A stretch of 32,243 nucleotides of DNA, taken from the NCBI GenBank assembly GCA_020435995.1, contig JAGQYO010000041.1, positions 1 through 32,243 of the forward strand, in the 5' to 3' direction. Positions 14,729-26,650 of the stretch are shown here, piece after piece. The position numbers and the translations under genes are program-made. Within the stretch, counting starts at the first letter, position 1; the number at the start of each line of letters is the position of its first letter. The notes beneath the pieces are model-generated. The model was given only the letters and a program-made list of their open reading frames with translations. It did not search any database and was not told the DNA's origin. The DNA comes from Flavobacteriales bacterium. GTDB taxonomy: Bacteria; Bacteroidota; Bacteroidia; Flavobacteriales_G; Salibacteraceae.

Positions 14729-15274
14729 ATGGATAAAATAATCTTAGGAATGGATCCAGGAACTACGCTGATGGGGTACGGACTGATACACGTGAAAGAT
14801 AAGAAAATGTCTATGATTCAAATGGGCGTAATTCAACTTTCTAAATTTGAAGAACATTCGGATAAGCTCAAACGAATTTTTGAAAGAACACTAGAATTAA
14901 TTGACAATTATAAGCCAGACGAATTTGCCGTAGAAGCCCCATTTTACGGTAAAAATGTACAATCCATGTTAAAACTTGGAAGAGCTCAAGGGGTGTCTAT
15001 GGCTGCCGCATTGTATCGCAACATACCCATTATGGAATATTCGCCAAGGAAAATAAAACAAAGCATAACGGGTAATGGTAATGCCTCTAAAGAACAAGTG
15101 GCCGCAATGCTGCAGAGTTTGTTGAAATTTGAGGAAATGCCCAAAAACTTGGATGCCACAGATGGGCTTGCTGCTGCGGTTTGTCATTATTTTCAAGGGG
15201 GAGGGGAGAGTAAGAAGAAAAAATATGCAAGTTGGAAATCATTCGTGAATGGAAACCCAAAGAAGGCAAGTTAA
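14729..15274 (+). CDS. ruvC: Crossover junction endodeoxyribonuclease RuvC
   Basis: 181 residues, a normal length. RNase H-like fold with the four acidic catalytic residues in place: Asp9 in GMDPGTT, Glu69 in [11 protein letters not shown], and Asp142 and Asp145 in [13 protein letters not shown]. The dimer-interface and DNA-binding loop [18 protein letters not shown] is well conserved. RuvC resolves Holliday junctions in recombination repair with RuvAB, which are not in the window. ATG start at 14729. Its TAA stop overlaps the stop of the convergent HIT gene within a shared TTAA (15271-15274). Confidence 0.98.
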
Positions 15275-15663
15275 AGGTTTTTTCTAATTTGTGCTGCAAT
15301 TTGCTCAAATTCATCGGTGGTGAGCTGGAGTTTTTCGTTTGCGAAATTCATGTCCGATGTTTTATTGATTGGAATTAGATGCACGTGAGCATGTGGAACA
15401 TCGAATCCAATAATAGCACTTCCAATACGATGGCAGGAAAAGGCCTTTTTAATTCCTTTCGCCACTTGTTTTGAGAATGACATGAGTTCTTTAATCATGT
15501 GGTCGTCGAGCTCAAAAAACTGATCAACTTCTGTTTTAGGCACCACCAAAGTATGGCCTTTTTGAAGTGGATAAATGTCTAAGAAAGCATAGCAAAACTC
15601 ATTTTCTGCAATCTTATAAGACGGAATTTCTCCCTTTATTATTTTAGTAAATAAAGTAGCCAT
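15271..15663 (-). CDS. HIT family nucleotide-binding protein
   Basis: 130 residues. Cytosolic histidine-triad protein: [14 protein letters not shown] at the N-terminus, GHTLVVPK near residue 36, and the catalytic triad HAHVHLIPI (His91, His93, His95). HIT proteins hydrolyse nucleoside phosphoramidates or dinucleotides; the role in this organism is unknown. The ATG at 15663 overlaps the greA stop by one base (TAATG), so the pair is translationally coupled. A TTG three codons upstream lies inside greA and is less likely. Confidence 0.94.
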
Positions 15664-16136
15664 TAGAGGCAAATTTCTAAAATTTCAAATTTAATAATAC
15701 CACCCGGAGTTGTAATTTCAGCCACAGAACCAACAGTTTTTCCCAGTAGGCCTTGCCCAATAGGTGAGTCCACGCTTATTTTCCCAAGTTTTAGATCTTG
15801 TTCATTCTCCGCTACAAGCGTATAAGTGAATTCCATTTGATTTGCCAAATTTTTCAATCTAACAGTCGAAAGAATTAAAACTTTGCTTGAGTCTAATTGG
15901 CTTTTGTCGATGACCCGAGCATTGCTAATAAGATCTTCAATTTGTGCGATTTTCATTTCTAGCAATCCTTGAGCTTCTTTAGCTGCGTCGTATTCAGCGT
16001 TTTCAGATAAGTCACCCTTATCACGTGCTTCACCAATTTGTAATGAAATTTTTGGTCGCTCGACTCTTTTGAGATAGTCAACTTCGCTACGTAATTTTTC
16101 TAATCCTTCTTCGGTATAATATGCCACTTTGCTCAT
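15663..16136 (-). CDS. greA: Transcription elongation factor GreA
   Basis: 157 residues, typical of GreA. The N-terminal coiled coil (about 1-75) carries the conserved tip with acidic residues (DKGDLSENAEYDAAKEAQ, about 40-57). The C-terminal FKBP-like domain includes ISVDSPIGQGLLGKTVGS and an EITTPGG motif. GreA enters the secondary channel of RNA polymerase and stimulates cleavage of backtracked RNA. ATG start at 16136. A terminator belonging to the upstream PorV-like gene separates greA from the 16-25 kb operon, so greA and the HIT gene form their own unit. Confidence 0.97.
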   Translation of the reverse strand: MSKVAYYTEEGLEKLRSEVDYLKRVERPKISLQIGEARDKGDLSENAEYDAAKEAQGLLEMKIAQIEDLISNARVIDKSQLDSSKVLILSTVRLKNLANQMEFTYTLVAENEQDLKLGKISVDSPIGQGLLGKTVGSVAEITTPGGIIKFEILEICL

Positions 16137-16214: not shown

Positions 16215-17291
16215 CTAAAGGCTAAGTCTTAATCCAATGCTGTGATTTCCTCCAAATGGATTTGTAGTTCGGTATGCGTAATCAACACCAATTGTTGATT
16301 GACTTTTTCCCAATGGGTACTCGAAAGTTAAACCCATAGCAGGTCCAGTGTATATGGTAGTACGCTGATCTTGCTTGAAAATACCTTTTTCACTCATCAA
16401 GCCAACCCTTACCATTACCATTTCTCTCCAACCATATTCAACACCAAATCGGAGTTGATCTTTTCCAAACGACCTCGAAACAAAGGTTCCATGACCTGAA
16501 ATTCTGTGATCTGTTTTATCTGACTTGCCCGTTGAATCAGTTTTAGCCCCAACATAATAATCATAAGAAACTCCAATCATAAGTTCTGCGGGTAATTCGA
16601 ATGCTTCAGACCGCTGACTCAAGGTAAACTCCTTTTCATCGAAATCTGTTTTTACGCTAAGTCCGTTTCCAGAATATTTAAGCTTAGGGCCAATATTGCG
16701 AAGCGCAATACCAAATTTAAGGTTGTCATCTTTACCGGTTTGGTAACGAATTCCAATATCAAATGCTACACCTTGAGTTTTTACGTTTGAAATAGACTCC
16801 GAAACCACTTTCATGGCTATTCCACCATAAATGCTGTTGGAGAATGTTCTCGCATACGCCAAGTTTAAATTCAGAAATTGTGGAGAGTAAATTCCGATAC
16901 CACCTTCAGGATTGTCCTCAGTAGTAATGTCAATATCCCCAAAAGACATATTCATGATTTGGATTCCAAGAACGCCCGATTCCCCAATTCGCTGGGAAAG
17001 TCCCGCGGTGTTGAGTTTAGTAGCTCCACCCATATAATTGGTGTAGGCATAAATAACTTCTGTTTTTGGTGTAAATGCCAAGCCAGCAATATTGGAGGCA
17101 ATGGCCTCAAGCCCTATTGCAGATACAGAATTTGCTGATGCAAAACCACTACTTCTTGCCCAGGGGTTTATGCTCAGTTCATTGGCGCCATTTTGTCCTA
17201 TTCGATCCTTATTACCTGCGAGGGCGTCGATAGAAGTTAATGAGGATGCCAGTCCGAGTGCGAAAATTATAACTAGATACCTGTTTCTCAT
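16215..17291 (-). CDS. PorV/PorQ family outer-membrane barrel
   Basis: 358 residues. N-terminal signal peptide (RNRYLVIIFALGLASSLTSIDALA), then the family's opening pattern: INPWARSSGFASANSV, followed by EAIASNIAGLAFTPKTEVIYAYTNYMG (conserved N-x-AGLA), and repeated amphipathic strands ending in SIGLRLSL. PorV-type proteins are 14-strand barrels of the type IX secretion system that carry substrates from the translocon to the attachment complex; PorQ proteins are relatives. I cannot tell which subgroup this belongs to. It is the last gene of an apparent operon, 31 bases after a giant secreted protein with a T9SS-like C-terminus, so it may be that protein's dedicated partner. A terminator follows. 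Confidence 0.83.
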   Translation of the reverse strand: MRNRYLVIIFALGLASSLTSIDALAGNKDRIGQNGANELSINPWARSSGFASANSVSAIGLEAIASNIAGLAFTPKTEVIYAYTNYMGGATKLNTAGLSQRIGESGVLGIQIMNMSFGDIDITTEDNPEGGIGIYSPQFLNLNLAYARTFSNSIYGGIAMKVVSESISNVKTQGVAFDIGIRYQTGKDDNLKFGIALRNIGPKLKYSGNGLSVKTDFDEKEFTLSQRSEAFELPAELMIGVSYDYYVGAKTDSTGKSDKTDHRISGHGTFVSRSFGKDQLRFGVEYGWREMVMVRVGLMSEKGIFKQDQRTTIYTGPAMGLTFEYPLGKSQSTIGVDYAYRTTNPFGGNHSIGLRLSL

Positions 17292-17322
17292 AATGTTTTA
17301 TCCTATAGTCCTGAATTCAATT

Positions 17323-20300
17323 TTAGAAGTTGTCTAAGTCAATTGGGCGCATAACTCCCATCCATTTTAATACTCGTTCTCCCACGTCTTGAGCATCTAT
17401 ATGGAAAATGTACATTCCCGATGCAATGGGTACACGACTTTGGTTTTTGAGATCCCACTCCAAATATGTAATGGTGTCATCATCTTTTTTCAGAGTTCTT
17501 ACTAGAGTGCCATTTACTGTGTAAATTCTAACAGTTACCACCCTTGGTAAATTTGTTATCCTAATTCGGTTATCCAATTTATCTGTTTCGTAACTGGAAT
17601 AAGCGTAGTAAGGATTAGGAACTATCTTAATAAGATCCAGCGCATTAGATAAGGTATTATCGCTGTTGAAAGTGGGTGCTAGATCCGTGGTGGAGAAGTT
17701 GTACAACGGCAAACCTCCATTAATTGATCTCATCAACACATCAACCGAATCATTTCCTTCGCGAGAAACAGTAGAGTTTCTGTAATTTCCATAACGATAG
17801 CTCACGGTAGCAGCATTTGCGGTAAGTGTCATACCTCTAACATAAATGGAATCTGTGGCTGTATCCTTCACTTGTTTTACGGGGCCAGCAGCCACGTAGT
17901 AAGTTTCACCAACCACCAATGGATCTGTAGGTTTTAAGAAGTCATTAGAGGTGCCATAGGCTTCATAGGGTTTTTGAACCCTAAGTTTAATGGTAGCTTC
18001 ACCTGGAGGCACATTTTTATTTGTGAATTTCTTACCCTCCTCGAGTAGTGGAAAGGCCACCCACATACCTGCTCTAAATACAGCGCCTGCTCTTCTCTTA
18101 ATTTCAACACCGGTAGAATCTCTTAATGCAGGATTCGGATAGCCATAGATGCCATTTAGCATGGTGTAGGCAAATTTACCAGCATCATAGGCAGGCATTC
18201 TGTTTACGGGATAGTTGTAGTTCCAAGTCATTGCTGGACTTTCTACGTCTTTTTCTTGGTGCTGATCGTAGCGATTTACTTCATCCTCTACAGCGTTATT
18301 TCTAAATACATAGATATAGTGCATACCACCTAAACGCAATTCACCCGCTGGACCTTCAACCAAATTAGCAGTAGGATTCCATATCATATCACGTCCATTT
18401 TCTGCCGGTAAATAAGAATCTTCGCTAAATGCCATATTTAACCTTTCACCAGTTTCCAAATTGATGGCATAACCTGGGAACCAACCCATTCCATTAGGAC
18501 CAATATAAGCAGCACTCTCTGGATCATCTGACGCAACAGCGCCTGCTGTTGCTGGATTTCCGTTTTTATCAACCGAAGGGGCATCTCTTAATTGCCCTCT
18601 GATGGAGCGATTGGTGGTTCCCCCTAGCTTAATGCTATCAGCCATTTCGAATACTGGACATCTTGTCCACTTCGACTTGTCTCTCGTAATCACTAAATCA
18701 ACGCTATTTAAATAGTGCAATTGATTGAAGGAATCGACTCCTACCACGTATGCACTATCATTTGGAGGCGACGGCAGATTCTTCTTGATAATGATGTTGT
18801 TATATTGCCAGAGATGCCCTCCAAATACCGGAGAACCATCAACTTTAGCGGGAAGCCAACCAGGTACTGGTCCGTTGGATGTTTTAAATGCAGTCATTCT
18901 GAACGGCGCGACAGTTCCACTAAGAACCTGTTCCCAAAGTTGCCCAGGATCCAAACCTTCACCATTTTTAGAATAACCACTAGTACCGCCATCTCGTTGT
19001 CTATAATTCCAATCATCATAATTTTCTTCATGAACCGGTGAATTAGGATCAGGTGGAGTAGTTTGTGTTCCCGAAAGGATCCAGTTTAGCGGGGTGTAGC
19101 CATCTACATCTTCTACGCCAGTGATCCATTCAGGACTTTGTGAAATTTCTGCACTCAACAAGCCCATATCAGTAGTTCTATTTGATTTAGCTCCTGGAGG
19201 ATCCACTTGTGCAATAGTTAAGGAAATACCGAGATCAAAAAGAATGGTTTCAGTCCCGATTTTTATGTTTTTGGTTGAAACAATTGGGCTAGATAACCCA
19301 CCGCCTTCAATCTGCCAGTAAGCGTCAGATAAATCTCCATTAGAAGTAGTATCAATAAATCGTATGGTGTAATTTCCTGGCTTCACGTTTAGTGGGTCTA
19401 CCACTTTAATTGAAACTGGGCCCTTTCCTCTGAGGTAGGTAATCGTTTTGGCTCTACCATACTTCACAATAGAATCGCGGCTGTTCTGAGAAATCTCAAG
19501 CACGTTACCACCATTGCCAGTTCCTTCAATTCTTGTTAGTACGACACCATCACCATAACGTGAATTGAGAATTGTTCCACCATTCTGAACTTCCGTTTTA
19601 TGTGGAATAGCCTTAACGGGGCTTATACCACCTGTAGGGCTTTTTCTACTTCCAATATATGGAAAACTCGGGGCGTTCATGTTACTTGCATAAGCCACAG
19701 CCATAAAGTAATACGCCTTGTTGTTAATGAGTTTTTTATCGCCTTCGGCAAACTGATCCTGATCAATTGAAAAGGAGGTAAGGATTCCCTCATTATTTCC
19801 ATCGACTTCAAGTCTAGGAACTTCTGCTCCTAAATCGCTATCGAAGTAATAGTTGATTATTTGATCAATAGAATCTTTAATATCCACTTGCGCAACTAAT
19901 CTTGCCAAGTCAGCTTTACCTAAATCGCCTGAAGAAACCGAATTGTTTTTCAATTGATAGATCTTATACCCTTGGAATCTATATGTCTTGAATTCGCGAA
20001 TTTCGCTTTCCGTCATGGGTCTATTACCAATAGAATCTGGAGGAATAATGGTAGGATCAAGCTCTAAATAATTCTCATTGAAGTTGTTAGAAATGATGGG
20101 ATTATTCAAGTAAAGAATAATCTGATTTTCAAACTCACGAGCAGTTAATGTGGGCGCATCTGGACCATTTAAAAGTTGAAAACAGTTATCAAATAACGCT
20201 TGGGTTTTGTCATCGTGCTTTTTAAGAACTTTAACCGATTCGGTGTTATTTCCAGTCGTGGCTCTCGACCAAACAACTCCTACGGTAATGTTATTTACTG

Positions 20301-21813
20301 CTCCTGGTTCAAGTGTAAATGGACCAGCACTTTGCATAAATCTTCTGTCACCTTTGGTGTTGCCGGCTGTCACCTCCGTCCATTCTGGTTGAGGAGCACC
20401 GCCAGTTCCCCAGCCAATTGGATCCGAGTTACCAGGGAACATATAATCTGCGTTAATAGTTCCACCTGATCCAGAATGGCCTGTACCACCATAAACCATG
20501 CGGCTACCATCTCGCCAGATACTTCTTAGGTAATTGTAATATTCTACTCCTGTATTTGGATCCCCTCTCACAGTGTTATCATTGTTGTGATAAAGGAATT
20601 TTCTCATTCCAAAACGTTCGTTGTCAATAACTCCATCGCCATATCCAATTCCAATTCCCTTATATGGGATTCCTAGATTGGCTTGAGCTTCAGTGTATTT
20701 TCTGATCAAGGGATTATCAATTCCATCGGCATCCTGATAAGGTCCTTGGAAAAAGTCAACTCCAATGGCAGGTGGTAAGTTTCCGTACCCTGTAACTCCT
20801 CTACAGTCTTCATCATAAGTATCACCATTATAGGCAAAACCCAACCCTCTCTCAACATCACAACCTACATAGTCATCACTTGAACATCCTAAATCGGCAT
20901 CTACCCATTGACCGAAATAGGTATCCGTAAGGGTAAACGTAGACCTATTAACCAATTCATAGTTATAGAAAGTCATGTTATTTACCTCGTCATTGGTTGA
21001 AAATGCAAAAGCTTGGGCCCTGATTTCCATACCAATTGCGCCAGCGCCTGATTCCGTGTGAATATTTCCCTTGTCGTTAAATATCCACCATAAGTTTTGA
21101 TCTCCATAGATATCTGTAATGTTTGCATTACACTCGCTGGCATTATTCAAATCATAAGCGGGGTAGTCACCACTTTCGGGATTATAGTTACCATCTCCAT
21201 CTCGGTCAACAAATGGCGCTAAGTAATAATCTTGGTTATATGGAGCAGCGTTTTCTCCATGTGCAGGCCAATCAATTATGGAGCGAGGAACCGTGTAATC
21301 TGGGAACAATTCGGCTTGCTTTGCTGGATCGTTTTGTCCTGTTTCGTACCAACCCACAAATTGGGCAACCTCGCTTCTTGTGGTCAAAAAGTGTTTATCC
21401 CATTTTGAACATTCTGCTTGGGTAATTTCTGCATCTACTGTGCTTAGTGGCCCAGTCCAGAAATCCACCCCGTTGCTTCTAAATCTTTGTGCGGCAACTT
21501 TTAACTGTCCAGAAATATCTCTTCCTCCTAACCAAAGTGCACCAGCAAAAAGTGCCGTGTGACCCGAGTTTTTTGGAATTTCATATTGCGCTTTGGCAAA
21601 ATCCCACCACATATCACCACCAGTTTGAATAACCGCTCTGGTATTGTTAATGTTTAGCTCAGATGCAAAACTTGACGGTGCGCAATTCGCTGCGAGACCA
21701 CTATTTGGTTTTTTTCCTCCTCTAGAGCCACCTTCAGTGGGGCCAACATGAGAGAAGGCGGTAAGACCAATTGTCGCGAAAACTAATGTGCCGAGGGTAA
21801 TTCTTTTTATCAT
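17323..21813 (-). CDS. Giant secreted protein with T9SS-like C-terminal domain
   Basis: 1496 residues with a signal peptide (IKRITLGTLVFATIGLTAFS). A Gly/Lys-rich segment is followed by a conserved-looking block (NNTRAVIQTGGDMWWDFAKA, then ALFAGALWLGGRD). Near residues 200-212 is DRDGDGNYNPESGD, a calcium-loop-like pattern. Several predicted beta-sandwich segments follow. The last ~100 residues (IVPNPYYAYSSYETD, TVRIYTVNGTLVRTL, LEWDLKNQ, SGMYIFHID) have the form of a type A T9SS sorting domain, but extend past the usual end into a short tail finishing RPIDLDNF. The protein should be exported and kept on the cell surface; no enzyme motif is visible. It sits 20 bases after the TonB receptor gene and 31 before the PorV-like gene, consistent with one operon. 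Confidence 0.8.
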   Translation of the reverse strand: MIKRITLGTLVFATIGLTAFSHVGPTEGGSRGGKKPNSGLAANCAPSSFASELNINNTRAVIQTGGDMWWDFAKAQYEIPKNSGHTALFAGALWLGGRDISGQLKVAAQRFRSNGVDFWTGPLSTVDAEITQAECSKWDKHFLTTRSEVAQFVGWYETGQNDPAKQAELFPDYTVPRSIIDWPAHGENAAPYNQDYYLAPFVDRDGDGNYNPESGDYPAYDLNNASECNANITDIYGDQNLWWIFNDKGNIHTESGAGAIGMEIRAQAFAFSTNDEVNNMTFYNYELVNRSTFTLTDTYFGQWVDADLGCSSDDYVGCDVERGLGFAYNGDTYDEDCRGVTGYGNLPPAIGVDFFQGPYQDADGIDNPLIRKYTEAQANLGIPYKGIGIGYGDGVIDNERFGMRKFLYHNNDNTVRGDPNTGVEYYNYLRSIWRDGSRMVYGGTGHSGSGGTINADYMFPGNSDPIGWGTGGAPQPEWTEVTAGNTKGDRRFMQSAGPFTLEPGAVNNITVGVVWSRATTGNNTESVKVLKKHDDKTQALFDNCFQLLNGPDAPTLTAREFENQIILYLNNPIISNNFNENYLELDPTIIPPDSIGNRPMTESEIREFKTYRFQGYKIYQLKNNSVSSGDLGKADLARLVAQVDIKDSIDQIINYYFDSDLGAEVPRLEVDGNNEGILTSFSIDQDQFAEGDKKLINNKAYYFMAVAYASNMNAPSFPYIGSRKSPTGGISPVKAIPHKTEVQNGGTILNSRYGDGVVLTRIEGTGNGGNVLEISQNSRDSIVKYGRAKTITYLRGKGPVSIKVVDPLNVKPGNYTIRFIDTTSNGDLSDAYWQIEGGGLSSPIVSTKNIKIGTETILFDLGISLTIAQVDPPGAKSNRTTDMGLLSAEISQSPEWITGVEDVDGYTPLNWILSGTQTTPPDPNSPVHEENYDDWNYRQRDGGTSGYSKNGEGLDPGQLWEQVLSGTVAPFRMTAFKTSNGPVPGWLPAKVDGSPVFGGHLWQYNNIIIKKNLPSPPNDSAYVVGVDSFNQLHYLNSVDLVITRDKSKWTRCPVFEMADSIKLGGTTNRSIRGQLRDAPSVDKNGNPATAGAVASDDPESAAYIGPNGMGWFPGYAINLETGERLNMAFSEDSYLPAENGRDMIWNPTANLVEGPAGELRLGGMHYIYVFRNNAVEDEVNRYDQHQEKDVESPAMTWNYNYPVNRMPAYDAGKFAYTMLNGIYGYPNPALRDSTGVEIKRRAGAVFRAGMWVAFPLLEEGKKFTNKNVPPGEATIKLRVQKPYEAYGTSNDFLKPTDPLVVGETYYVAAGPVKQVKDTATDSIYVRGMTLTANAATVSYRYGNYRNSTVSREGNDSVDVLMRSINGGLPLYNFSTTDLAPTFNSDNTLSNALDLIKIVPNPYYAYSSYETDKLDNRIRITNLPRVVTVRIYTVNGTLVRTLKKDDDTITYLEWDLKNQSRVPIASGMYIFHIDAQDVGERVLKWMGVMRPIDLDNF

Positions 21814-21833
21814 ACCTATCTATAAGTATTTGT

Positions 21834-24800
21834 TTAAAATGATACACGTACCCCAATTCTGGTCTGACGAGGTATGTTGTAACTATTAGGATTTGCTACT
21901 TTAATGTTGTAAAGTTCTGTAAAAGACTGTGTGTCGTTTTGGCTTTCGATATCCTTAGCCCATTGAGGATCTGCTAAGTATCCATCATCATCTGGGCTAC
22001 CTGTATAACGATATACGCTTGTGATGTTTTTAGAGTTGAGCATGTTCAGAATTTGAAGATAAACTGTCATATCTAAGTTCTTGTTCTTTTCCTTGCCCAC
22101 TTTAAGTGTGAAATCTTTATCAATTCTACCATCTAATCGGAAACTCCAAGGTAATCGATTGCCATTAATAGAACCCTCGATAAACGCACTTCCTTGATTA
22201 GCTTTAAACCCCGTACCATTTGATCTTACTTGACCACTATAAGGAACACCTGACCCCAAGTTTGCAGTTAAGTTAAAACCTGAGTTCTTTAAAATTTGCT
22301 TATCGGCTATAATAGGGCCGTTGTAGTGTTTACCTTCCGAATACCTAAAGTCAAAAACTCCCTGTATAGTATGCCGCTGATCGTAGTTAAGTGGATTTGT
22401 TACCCTTAAATTGTCTTTGCCAGCGTTGATTAGCGATGAGGCAAATGTGGCGTCGGATCCAGTACCTTCAGCAAATTGTAGGGTATAAGATCCTTTAAAC
22501 GAAACATTTCCTGTTCTTCTTAAGTCATAAGTTATTGTTAAACCTTTAACTGTTCCGAAGTCAATGTTTTCAAAAGTTGAATACGATCTTGGATAAGCTT
22601 GCTTCCTTCGTATGGCTTGAATTTGATCTCTCATTTCACGATAGAAAGTGGCAATTTTTAATGAGCTGCTGTTGGTCAATTTCTGCTGAAAACCGATTTC
22701 GTAATCAACTGTTTTTTCCGCTTTTAAGTTTGGATTATTTCTAAGAGTTTGGTTATTAGTGGTGAGTAAAAAGTAATAATCGTTGGGGTCCAATCTATTT
22801 ACACTAGAAGGAGGTCTTCTTGTTAAGACATCATAGTGTGCAAAGAATAGTGCTTCATCACTAATGGGGAATGAAAAGGCAATTCTAGGCATAAAGTTGG
22901 TTTGAGGTTTATAATCTTCAAAACCATCAATACCTAAATCTCTATCTCTTGTACGATCTTTGTCTACTAAGAGTGGAGCAATTCCATTACTGGTGGCAAT
23001 TTGATCGGGATTAGAAATCTCAACACCCTCAGCATTATACCATATATTACCATCGCGGTATCCTCTGATGGAGCTTGGGTCCTTTACGTCGTCTACATAA
23101 ACAACAAAGTCTTCACCTATATTTTCTGGATGACGTCCATCAGCTAATTTGAGTGCTTCGCTTTCGCCAGCTTTTACTGTAGGAAAAAACACATAAGGAT
23201 CCTTCAATACTTTTTGATTCGCATCGTATCTATCTATTCTTAATCCTACGTTGAAAATAAGATCTGAAATAGCAAACTTATCTTGAATATAACCCGCAAC
23301 ATAAATAGGAGTGAAGGCCCCTACTTGACGAGTATAGTTACCAAACTCATCTTTTCCGGAGAAGTAATCTTCTAGGGTTACATTTTCTTTCAATTTAGTT
23401 CCATACGCGTCGTAACCATAATAAGAAACTATTGCATTTCCTTGATTAAGAAGCTCATCAGGACTAAAATAATCAAGCTTTAGTCTCTCAGGATCAATGT
23501 TGTCTAAGTCGATGTAATCCGTACCATCTGTTCCGCCTGGCGCTAAGTCAGTCAGGTTTTTTCTCAAGTTGTAATCAAAAAATGATTGTGCATCGTCCGG
23601 GCTATATTCTCCTGGTGCAGCATTCAATCTGTTATAGGTGTAAACTGGCGCTCCTGGGAAAGCATCCGAAGAATCTACTATGGGGTTACTTAAATCTCTT
23701 TCTTTAATATGTAGATTAACTAATTGACGACCTCGAGTCCAAAGACCTCTAGGTGCAACTCCATACGATCTATCCACTCGTTGCTCATATTCGAAACCCA
23801 ATTTAATTTCGTGATCTCCAATATCAACTGCACCATTTGCAGAAAGACGGTATTGGTTATTTGTGAATTTGCTATTGCTGTTGTAACGCTGACCAGGAGC
23901 ATTATACAACCCGTAAATATCTCTTGGCTCATCTCCATTGAGTAAGGCTCCATTGGTTTGCATAAAACCTCTTTCACTTAAATATTTGTTGTTTCTCCCT
24001 GGATCTGTAGGGTCAGTTGCTTTTTCTTTATCAAAAACAGGGTTACCATTAGCGTCGTATCCTTCCCAACCAAATAACTTATAGTATTGTGTAGTGTATT
24101 CGGCTAAATCTGGGTTTGCTGTTCCGGGAGTATAACCCACCAAAGTATCTTCCCAGTTTTGATGAATATATCCAAGTTGGCTTGTTGCAGAATCTATCCC
24201 GTATGCATAGTTTTTCGCTTGGTAGTTTTTAAAATAACCAATATGCCCATACTTGAATAGGTCATCCTTGTGGTCTGGGTCATAGGTCTTAGAGTTGTTG
24301 TTGGTGTAATCAAATTGAACAGAATAATACGCGTTTTTCACAACGGACGCATTTTCATCTCCCTGCTGGTTGTTAAAACGCTGTGTAAATCTAGCAAATC
24401 CATTATAATCTTGGGAAACCGTTTTGGGCATTATGTTCCAATTCATCAGCGTATTTGGATAGAGGTTGGCGGCGCCGGTTCCATCTGAATAAAAGCCACT
24501 TCCACTTCCATTTCTATCTGTTCTAGAATAGTTTCCACCCACTGCTAAGCTTGTGGTTTTTCCTGTTTTAATTTCTAACTTACCATTTATAGACACGGCA
24601 TTTCTTTGGTTATTTGGTTTGAGTCGGGTATTTTCTAAGTCGTTCATCCTCACAAATTCACCATTGTGTGCGGTACCACTTCCAGTAGGATGAGTTCTTA
24701 AAGGATCGGCACGAAGGTTATCCAAAGTTTCGTCCTTTAATTTCCACACGCCATTATGGGAGGGGCGTTGATCAGCGTCAAATTGATAATTTGCCGAAAC

Positions 24801-25661
24801 GAAAAAACCCAGAATAGGATCTTTTTTCTGATTAGCGCTGTCCTTACTCCAAAGAATGGGACCTAAAGCCGATACTTCAAAAAGATTGTAAGCATAAGGG
24901 TCGAGACCTACGTATTTTTTTCCGTCGCCAAAACGGTAACCTGAAGTTACGTACTCAGCATTAAAGCCATATTCTCTTGCGGCCCCTTTTGTTGTAATCG
25001 AAATTATACCTCCAGTTATATCACCGTATTGTGCTGGTACACCACCAAGCATTACAGACACTTCTGCGATAGCAGATTGAGGAATTAAATTAGCTCCTCC
25101 ACGTACTTTGATACCATCAACAAAATAGTAGTTCGCATCACTTCTCGCACCCCTAACGTTTAAGTCTCCATCCGAAGATGTATAAACACCACCTATTTGA
25201 GATGCGACTCCGGCGGCAGAACGCGTCGCCATTCTGTCTATTTCTTCTGACGTCATAGTACCACCCGATGTAGTGTTATCTTTCGAGATAAGTGGAACTT
25301 TATATCCTTCAACTATAAAGGCTTCCATCTCTACTGCCGTGGTTTCCATTTTAATATCAAGGAATGTGATTTTATCAGAATTCACAACAACATCCGTCCT
25401 CATCATTGGCTTGTAACCTACGAATTTCACCTTCACATCATACTTGCCTGGTGAGAGAGATTTAACAACATAAACTCCATCAAAATCCGTTGAAGCTCCC
25501 GTAATAAGGTTTCCCCCTTGTTCTATACTGACATTAACAAAAGGCAAAGGCTCTCCTGTCTCTGTGTCGAGGATTTTTCCTTTTATACTTCCCTGCTGGG
25601 CATGGGCTATTGAAAAGAGTGAAAAAATTATCACCAATAAGGCAAATAAATTCTTAGTCAT
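21834..25661 (-). CDS. TonB-dependent receptor with CarboxypepD_reg head
   Basis: 1275 residues. Signal peptide TKNLFALLVIIFSLFSIAHA, then a CarboxypepD_reg-like domain (about 22-110: GSIKGKILDTETGEPLPFVNV, DFDGVYVVKSLSPGKYDV), the plug domain (about 125-250; the key segment is LNVRGARSDANYYFVDG, then GGVPAQYGDITGGIISITTKG), and a 22-strand barrel ending in aromatic VRVSF. It takes up an unknown large ligand across the outer membrane with TonB-ExbBD energy. No SusD-like lipoprotein follows; instead the next gene encodes a large T9SS-type protein, which may replace it at the surface. I chose ATG 25661, since TTG 25691 only adds ten residues. A promoter with both -33 and -7 elements lies upstream. 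Confidence 0.9.
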   Translation of the reverse strand: MTKNLFALLVIIFSLFSIAHAQQGSIKGKILDTETGEPLPFVNVSIEQGGNLITGASTDFDGVYVVKSLSPGKYDVKVKFVGYKPMMRTDVVVNSDKITFLDIKMETTAVEMEAFIVEGYKVPLISKDNTTSGGTMTSEEIDRMATRSAAGVASQIGGVYTSSDGDLNVRGARSDANYYFVDGIKVRGGANLIPQSAIAEVSVMLGGVPAQYGDITGGIISITTKGAAREYGFNAEYVTSGYRFGDGKKYVGLDPYAYNLFEVSALGPILWSKDSANQKKDPILGFFVSANYQFDADQRPSHNGVWKLKDETLDNLRADPLRTHPTGSGTAHNGEFVRMNDLENTRLKPNNQRNAVSINGKLEIKTGKTTSLAVGGNYSRTDRNGSGSGFYSDGTGAANLYPNTLMNWNIMPKTVSQDYNGFARFTQRFNNQQGDENASVVKNAYYSVQFDYTNNNSKTYDPDHKDDLFKYGHIGYFKNYQAKNYAYGIDSATSQLGYIHQNWEDTLVGYTPGTANPDLAEYTTQYYKLFGWEGYDANGNPVFDKEKATDPTDPGRNNKYLSERGFMQTNGALLNGDEPRDIYGLYNAPGQRYNSNSKFTNNQYRLSANGAVDIGDHEIKLGFEYEQRVDRSYGVAPRGLWTRGRQLVNLHIKERDLSNPIVDSSDAFPGAPVYTYNRLNAAPGEYSPDDAQSFFDYNLRKNLTDLAPGGTDGTDYIDLDNIDPERLKLDYFSPDELLNQGNAIVSYYGYDAYGTKLKENVTLEDYFSGKDEFGNYTRQVGAFTPIYVAGYIQDKFAISDLIFNVGLRIDRYDANQKVLKDPYVFFPTVKAGESEALKLADGRHPENIGEDFVVYVDDVKDPSSIRGYRDGNIWYNAEGVEISNPDQIATSNGIAPLLVDKDRTRDRDLGIDGFEDYKPQTNFMPRIAFSFPISDEALFFAHYDVLTRRPPSSVNRLDPNDYYFLLTTNNQTLRNNPNLKAEKTVDYEIGFQQKLTNSSSLKIATFYREMRDQIQAIRRKQAYPRSYSTFENIDFGTVKGLTITYDLRRTGNVSFKGSYTLQFAEGTGSDATFASSLINAGKDNLRVTNPLNYDQRHTIQGVFDFRYSEGKHYNGPIIADKQILKNSGFNLTANLGSGVPYSGQVRSNGTGFKANQGSAFIEGSINGNRLPWSFRLDGRIDKDFTLKVGKEKNKNLDMTVYLQILNMLNSKNITSVYRYTGSPDDDGYLADPQWAKDIESQNDTQSFTELYNIKVANPNSYNIPRQTRIGVRVSF

Positions 25662-25713
25662 ACTATTGTGATTAACGTTATGAAATATCAACTAATGAAG
25701 CGAATCTGGGCGG

Positions 25714-25743
25714 TAAAGATATAATAAATTGAAGTCTACCAAA
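25714..25743 (-). promoter_or_regulatory. Promoter of the TonB receptor operon (-33 TTTG, -7 TATCTTTA)
   Basis: On the minus strand TTTG (25743-25740) is followed after 18 bases by TATCTTTA (25721-25714), close to the Bacteroidota consensus TTTG-N18/19-TAnnTTTG (last base A instead of G). The expected start of transcription is about 45 bases before the ATG at 25661. Confidence 0.55.
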
Positions 25744-25851: not shown

Positions 25852-26214
25852 TTATTTTTTCTTTCTAAAGGTTTTTCTAAATAATTTGGTGGTAGATCGC
25901 CACCAACGAATGGCAAAAAAGTCTCTTTTGTGGTCATTATGACGTGTAGCTTTTTTCATATTTCGCTTCATTCTCTTTCTTGTGGATTTGGTTTGGTTTG
26001 ACCGGTGAAGCCGTCTTAGTTCTTCTGAAACATCTACAGTTTCTGCATTGGATTTGTCGGTACTTTTATGTCCTTTTTTGGTTTCACGCTTTAATTTCCC
26101 TTTACTTGGTACATCATTTTTTTGGCCAAGTAGCTGGTTTGGGAGAATGCTCCCGAATAATAATAATATGAAGAAAAGGACAATTCTCAAATTGCGGTAG
26201 TTTTGCAAGTGCAT
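25852..26214 (-). CDS. Small, very basic secreted protein
   Basis: 120 residues from ATG 26214. An N-terminal hydrophobic segment (RIVLFFILLLFGSILP, about 9-24) is followed by LLGQ, a plausible cleavage site. The mature part is dense in Lys and Arg (TRKRMKRNMKK, KLFRKTFRKKK), with one Trp-Trp pair near residue 101. I do not recognise a family. High positive charge plus export suggests binding to nucleic acid, LPS or acidic surface polymer, but this is inference. Divergent neighbour: its ATG overlaps that of the Rieske-like lipoprotein (CATG 26212-26215). A TTG at 26232 would add six residues. Confidence 0.6.
   Translation of the reverse strand: MHLQNYRNLRIVLFFILLLFGSILPNQLLGQKNDVPSKGKLKRETKKGHKSTDKSNAETVDVSEELRRLHRSNQTKSTRKRMKRNMKKATRHNDHKRDFFAIRWWRSTTKLFRKTFRKKK
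26198..26205 (+). promoter_or_regulatory. Bacteroidota -7 box (TAGTTTTG) for the Rieske-like lipoprotein
   Basis: An exact TAnnTTTG, only seven bases before the ATG at 26213. If used, the message would begin at or within a few bases of the start codon and be leaderless. It lies inside the 5' end of the divergent gene's coding sequence. Confidence 0.45.
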
Positions 26215-26650
26215 GATAAAATTGATTTTCAAAGTTAGTGTTATACTTTATTATATCGCTCTTTTAATAGGATGTAAAAAGGACAAGAAGGAAGAGGTCT
26301 ATAATCAATTGCCTGAAGTACCAGTAAATATTTATATAAACCTGAGTGAACCTGCGTATTTTGGTTTAACGGTAATTGGCGGCTACACTTATATAGATGG
26401 TGGCTCAAGGGGAATCATAGTGTATAGAACATCTGATGAGTACAAGGCTTATGAAAGACATACACCCTACGAGTCGGAAAAACCCTGCGCCCAAGTATCA
26501 GTTGATTCTACTGCTACCTTTATGGTTGACGAGTGCTCTGGCTCTCGTTTTTATTTAATCGACGGTAGTGTTGAGCGCGGGCCGGCTACAATTCCTTTGA
26601 AACAATATTTCACTTCTGAAAACCAAGGAAGTCTTCGGATATATAACTAA
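26213..26650 (+). CDS. Lipoprotein with degenerate Rieske-like fold
   Basis: 145 residues. Lipoprotein signal MIKLIFKVSVILYYIALLIGC with Cys21 as the acylated residue, then the charged segment KKDKKEE. The C-terminal half follows a Rieske pattern: YRTSDEYKAYERHTPYE, KPCAQV, DECSGSRFYLIDGSVERGPATIPLKQY, where a true Rieske protein has CPHxxC and CPCHGSxFdl with a later GPA. The two ligand histidines are absent at the expected places, so binding of a [2Fe-2S] cluster is doubtful. Related His-less proteins are common in Bacteroidota (from memory). The ATG at 26213 gives the signal peptide with no extra residues. A bidirectional terminator follows. Confidence 0.72.
   Translation: MIKLIFKVSVILYYIALLIGCKKDKKEEVYNQLPEVPVNIYINLSEPAYFGLTVIGGYTYIDGGSRGIIVYRTSDEYKAYERHTPYESEKPCAQVSVDSTATFMVDECSGSRFYLIDGSVERGPATIPLKQYFTSENQGSLRIYN

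Follow-up and report, generated by a model that had tools for sequence, protein, structure and literature searches.

Three minus-strand genes lie in a row in the window, the whole 32,243-nucleotide stretch of DNA that was analysed. The most upstream gene (21834..25661) encodes a TonB-dependent receptor with a signal peptide, a CarboxypepD_reg-like N-terminal domain, a TonB-box-like stretch, a plug, and a barrel. Its start is likely the ATG at 25661, which gives a protein of 1275 aa; the 1285-aa frame begins at a TTG. The second gene (17323..21813) encodes a giant surface protein of 1496 aa, whose signal peptide has no lipobox, and the third (16215..17291) encodes an outer-membrane barrel of 358 aa. 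The coordinates of the three genes and the gaps of 20 and 31 bases between them agreed exactly with the original prediction. The single terminator expected 3' of the barrel gene was also recovered on the same strand, since folding gave an 11-bp stem and a T run at 16192-16167, with a dG of -16.1 kcal/mol and a z of -3.2 against shuffled sequences. The candidate promoter (25714..25743, minus strand; TTTG ... TATCTTTA) looks by eye like the Bacteroidota -33/-7 type. A promoter scan of the region, covering the sigma-70 type only, gave sites at chance level.

Downstream of the terminator, greA (15663..16136) and a gene for a HIT-family protein (15271..15660) follow on the minus strand, and both are syntenic neighbours of the trio across the class; greA is probably not part of the function of the trio. 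Immediately upstream of the operon, a very basic, secreted-looking protein of 120 aa is encoded on the minus strand (25852-26214), for which no family above the cut-off was found. Reading away from the DNA upstream of the trio is a small lipoprotein-like gene (26213-26650, plus strand), a relative of which also precedes the trio in 33 of the loci fetched. A LytTR-type response regulator was located at -2/-3 upstream of the giant in 27 loci, and it is a possible regulator of the trio.

The family search assigned the CarboxypepD_reg-like and Plug domains to the receptor, whose plug and C-terminus were conserved in an alignment of 34 members (A5). The window receptor did not match the SusC/RagA family TIGR04056 at E<=0.001; by the same E-value criterion, 16 of its 34 relatives did. 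The barrel matched the PorV/PorQ family NF033709 with 139.4 bits (cut-off, 90), as did 37/37 trio barrels at E<=0.001, which bears out the earlier designation of this protein as PorV-like. It is distinct from the PorV, PorQ, and PorV2 equivalogs, falling below the cut-offs of PorV proper (NF033710, 57.3 vs 250), PorQ (NF033711, 69.5 vs 220), and PorV2 (NF052325, 60.1 vs 325); the score for PorP/SprF (TIGR03519) was 13.1, below its cut-off of 90.55. A sequence search of solved structures with the giant and with the barrel gave no match.

For the giant, no family of Pfam and NCBIfam was found above the cut-off, and the Pfam matches to Tower, SRP54, and COX16, all below the cut-off, were dismissed as noise. 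The AF2 model of aa 25-735 was confident (pLDDT 91.3, pTM 0.86). Within it, an N-module (aa 44-547; 20173..21684, minus strand) was found by VIA to resemble the N-terminal beta-super-sandwich of the GH94, GH65, GH116, and GH15 enzymes, with Z scores of 17-19 over about 255 residues (19.4 to 9ju0 and 18.6 to 8xi1) and a sequence identity of 5-13 percent. The catalytic (alpha/alpha)6 barrel is absent from the modelled N-terminal part. It is reasonable to suppose from the model that the N-module may bind carbohydrate; the super-sandwich fold by itself does not prove glycan binding. Between about aa 736 and 1390, the giant was modelled with modest confidence and gave no interpretable match. Two N-module paralogues in the genome of the window (C200 and C141) carry a canonical Por_Secre_tail above the Pfam cut-off, indicating that the N-module is placed outside the cell via the T9SS route. 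Stand-alone proteins of 560 aa, consisting of the N-module only, were observed in tandem arrays of 11 and 7 genes on contigs C96 and C200 of G311. The 40-50 matches found per genome should not be read as 40-50 giants, since many of them are stand-alone 560-aa N-modules or matches to the C-terminal domain only.

For the C-terminal half of the giant, the model reached moderate confidence (pLDDT 76.9). In the model, aa 1392-1489 (17347..17640, minus strand) adopt the Ig-like C-terminal domain fold of T9SS type A cargo. The closest fold by VIA was that of PorZ (5m11; Z 10.8, 90 residues, 2.4 A), followed by that of PorU (6za2; Z 8.9); in the next tier (Z 7.2), the CTDs of RemZ and NucA from the SprA translocon stood alongside unrelated Ig-like domains. 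At the sequence level, the last ~100 residues scored 29.6 bits to NCBIfam PorZ, far from the full-length equivalog cut-off of 260, and the PorU equivalog was matched in the C-terminal domain only, with 17.7 bits against a cut-off of 420. The score to Por_Secre_tail/TIGR04183 was 14.4 bits, below the cut-off of 23, and 21/29 relatives matched it at E<=0.01 with a best E of 1e-4. The domain is conserved as well as the better core blocks of the giant.

After the last strand, the giant ends in a tail, RPIDLDNF (17326..17349, minus strand), which was modelled as a short helix. The tail had been pointed out as unusual, and it proved to be real and conserved in the class: among 90 trio giants, R at -8 was kept in 86, D at -5 in 85, and the final F in 78, and the motif KWxGxMRPxDLxxF following the last strand was nearly invariant. 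Outside the class, the tail is different (e.g., IIQEQQILDRF) or absent (GKFAIIK). Retention of the domain may not be general, given the plain type A-like tail found on some distant trio giants. A few giants (at L132 and L154) run on for one or two residues after the conserved F (NSFK), and the motif is therefore not necessarily the very end of the protein. A final F/Y was present in 84/87 trio giants and in 11/16 orphan giants (p 0.002), and a loss of the tail in giants without neighbours was considered. This reading was rejected because the variant endings belong to one Fluviicola/Crocinitomicaceae-like clade, in which the trio giants end alike.

Relatives of the giant were detected in 59/60 of the nearest genomes and in 222/395 genomes spread over the phylum, a sample that includes metagenome-assembled genomes; in a minority of the 222, the match is weak and covers no more than the C-terminal domain, such matches being admitted by the E-value thresholds. 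Since 140 loci were fetched by similarity to the giant alone, the gene order around them is an independent observation. The receptor gene was directly upstream in 112/140 giants and the barrel gene directly downstream in 112/140; both were present on the same strand in 110/140, and the median gaps of the trio were 28 and 32 bases. The trio was intact in 20/20 loci from other classes of Bacteroidota, where the giants have only 1000-1280 aa and nothing beyond the N-module and the C-terminal domain is shared with the window giant. Some classes carry ten or more divergent giant copies per genome, and in three genomes of another class with many giant paralogues each, 18/20 fetched copies were complete trios. 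In about 77 loci of the window's class, greA and then the HIT gene follow the trio, and this linkage also holds in clades with a second, lone giant copy. Hence the locus is ancestral, and the trio forms a unit. Giants without an adjacent receptor or barrel exist. The assumption that they are barrel-less systems was rejected, since 8/8 such genomes tested carry a close barrel elsewhere; in 7/7 of the fetched orphan-giant genomes, the barrel adjoins a giant at the conserved locus, with greA following. Rare co-occurrence of the three genes had been set beforehand as the outcome that would speak against the original prediction, and the trio was found to recur far above chance. The trio is not limited to this window: the module extends across the phylum and, in the class, occupies a conserved locus beside greA and the HIT gene.

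SprA, the channel of the T9SS, was found in 303/395 genomes. It was present in 221/222 giant-positive genomes, the lone exception being a weak match; 82 genomes had SprA and no giant, and 91 had neither (Fisher p 2e-39). That the giant is a core component of the T9SS was rejected on account of these 82 genomes. The genome of the window itself carries canonical SprA, canonical PorV and PorU encoded side by side, and TonB proteins. It has been reported that PorQ anchors PorZ and PorV anchors PorU, and that both cargo proteins keep their C-terminal domain (PMC5562754). Type B cargo is held by a PorP/SprF barrel encoded downstream (PMC9143113; PMC12618676). Every type A domain is stated to be recognised by PorV as the shuttle (PMC12618676), so that a barrel of the PorV family dedicated to a single protein would be a novelty, PorQ-PorZ excepted. 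A review has proposed that retained domains are protected by PorV-like barrels (PMC10202324). The assignment of the giant to the T9SS is thus supported by its predicted fold, its canonical-tailed paralogues, and its co-occurrence with SprA, but its sorting domain stays under the type A cut-off. Since this domain is also PorZ/PorU-like, a giant kept on the barrel is a better fit than one that is shuttled and cut off. The suggestion that the giant has its own PorV-like shuttle is supported by gene adjacency and correlated divergence.

Divergence of the three genes was compared. Among paralogous trios within single genomes, it proceeded in step for receptor-giant, giant-barrel, and receptor-barrel (r 0.83-0.93). 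In 70 greA-linked trios, the correlations survived removal of the greA and HIT distances, which control only weakly for the species tree, with partial r values of 0.67, 0.50, and 0.53; of these, 0.67 was for the receptor and the giant core, the strongest correlated divergence among all pairs, and 0.50 for the C-terminal domain and the barrel. Moreover, the C-terminal domain tracked the barrel better than the remainder of its own protein (bootstrap p 0.013), and the giant core was closer in divergence to the receptor than to the barrel (bootstrap p 0.001). However, in multi-copy genomes, the C-terminal domain followed the receptor a little more closely than the barrel (0.85 vs 0.80), against the class-level pattern. 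Binding of the domain to the barrel and contact of the core with the receptor would be expected to give the class-level pattern; linked, co-duplicating genes co-diverge without contact as well, and linkage and differences in rate can produce the same picture.

From the conserved gene order, the co-occurrence with SprA, the predicted folds, and the correlated divergence, we propose that the operon encodes one surface complex, in which the T9SS-exported giant is held on its own barrel and catches a ligand for the receptor. We assign this reading a probability of roughly 55%. By homology and co-occurrence, the giant would be taken to the periplasm by Sec and cross the outer membrane via SprA, led by its C-terminal Ig-like domain, and the private PorV-family barrel would draw it out and capture it. 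The uncleaved domain and the tail may then keep the giant on the barrel, as PorZ is kept on PorQ and PorU on PorV; the resemblance to PorZ/PorU and the tail point to this step. Judging from gene order and correlated divergence, the N-module and the beta-rich remainder would be positioned over or beside the receptor as a ligand catcher or lid, and the receptor would import the caught ligand, most likely a glycan or glycoconjugate, in a TonB-driven manner. The original prediction had offered lid, adhesin, or ligand catcher as roles of the giant, and these we infer rather than observe. Its interpretation was partly supported: the link to the T9SS and the recurrence of the trio were borne out, and the giant, judged by its sorting domain, is not a plain T9SS cargo. 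The 82 T9SS-bearing genomes without a giant count against the proposed complex.

The giant and the barrel could also be an independent PorZ/PorQ-like surface unit for envelope or glycan handling, e.g., polysaccharide attachment, the receptor being merely co-transcribed for an unrelated transport. Such a unit would agree with the closeness of the C-terminal domain to PorZ and with the super-sandwich as a carbohydrate-enzyme fold. It would also agree with a giant-less pair in the genome (L235:1441-5342, G000:C185), in which a second TonB-type receptor (964 aa) is directly followed by a PorV-family barrel (351 aa); barrels and receptors can thus pair in other ways. We consider it unlikely, because the receptor lies directly upstream of the giant at 112/140 loci and at 20/20 distant ones, and because divergence is most tightly correlated between the receptor and the giant core. 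If, on the other hand, the giant were an ordinary T9SS cargo, cut by PorU and either released or glycolipid-anchored as an enzyme or adhesin, the barrel would be a dedicated shuttle only, and the receptor would import what the giant releases. Against this, trio giants resemble type A tails weakly (14.4 bits against a cut-off of 23 for the window giant), an extra tail past the last strand is conserved in 86/90 giants, and a domain as conserved as the better core blocks does not look like a disposable signal. The canonical type A tails of the N-module paralogues and the type A-like ends of some distant trio giants would fit ordinary cargo, which we nevertheless regard as improbable.

A structural role of the complex, as a surface coat, adhesin, or assembly factor in which the plugged receptor barrel anchors and does not import, appears very improbable. 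A near-universal, strongly conserved ancestral locus by greA does resemble a core envelope part over a substrate-specific importer, and the Bacteroidota BAM is a precedent for large extracellular assemblies carried on barrels (PMC12578637). However, the receptor keeps a TonB-box-like stretch and a conserved plug, and the divergence among ten or more copies within single genomes of some classes looks like ligand diversification.

Compared with known systems, the proposed ligand-catching complex is similar to SusCD, and also to BtuB-BtuG, in that a TonB receptor with a carboxypeptidase-like N-terminal domain adjoins the gene of a large extracellular partner; the multi-copy expansion in some genomes is likewise shared with SusCD. 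Unlike in SusCD, the partner has neither a lipobox nor a SusD family match and is a T9SS-type giant with its own barrel, and the window receptor has no SusC/RagA match at E 0.001. By analogy, the trio may work like SusCD, with a T9SS giant on a barrel replacing the SusD lipoprotein. With PorZ-PorQ and PorU-PorV it would share a T9SS-exported surface protein on a PorV/PorQ-family barrel; the Ig-like domain is retained in the known systems and would be retained in the trio. It is also to PorZ and PorU that the giant's domain is closest in fold and sequence. However, the giant is neither PorZ nor PorU, the barrel is far below the PorV, PorQ, and PorV2 cut-offs, and the trio has a link to a TonB receptor and an extra conserved tail.

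In the type B systems (SprB-SprF and PG1035-PorP), a cargo gene is similarly followed by its own FadL-like barrel gene, and the barrel holds the cargo on the surface, as is proposed for the trio barrel. The latter is, however, of the PorV family and not PorP/SprF, the C-terminal domain is type A/PorZ-like, and a receptor is added. The predicted super-sandwich fold is common to the giant and the GH94, GH65, GH116, and GH15 N-terminal domains, but the N-module part of the giant lacks their catalytic (alpha/alpha)6 domain. In the Bacteroidota BAM with BamG and BamH, a large surface protein is carried by a FadL-family barrel next to a second barrel, an arrangement similar to that proposed for the trio; the trio differs in having no BamA and in belonging to different families. 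The trio is a combination, at phylum scale, of two known kinds, SusCD-like and PorZ-PorQ-like, and belongs to neither by family membership. Among the open-access papers searched, none described the trio as a system.

We tentatively suggest that the trio may represent an ancient, phylum-wide second class of TonB-dependent machine, made of a receptor, a T9SS-exported glycan-binding giant, and a PorV-like anchor barrel, in parallel to SusCD and with about ten specificities per genome in some classes. If so, the T9SS would build nutrient-receptor complexes beyond secreting enzymes and adhesins, and PorV-family barrels could serve as private, permanent subunits. With a phylum-wide module and one conserved locus in the class, the role of many orphan PorV-like barrels becomes a testable question. 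A further PorV-family barrel was observed at L234:6165-12340 (G000:C130), followed by a PorU-like protein of 1691 aa; the two apparently form a second sortase/shuttle pair beside the canonical PorU/PorV on C185.
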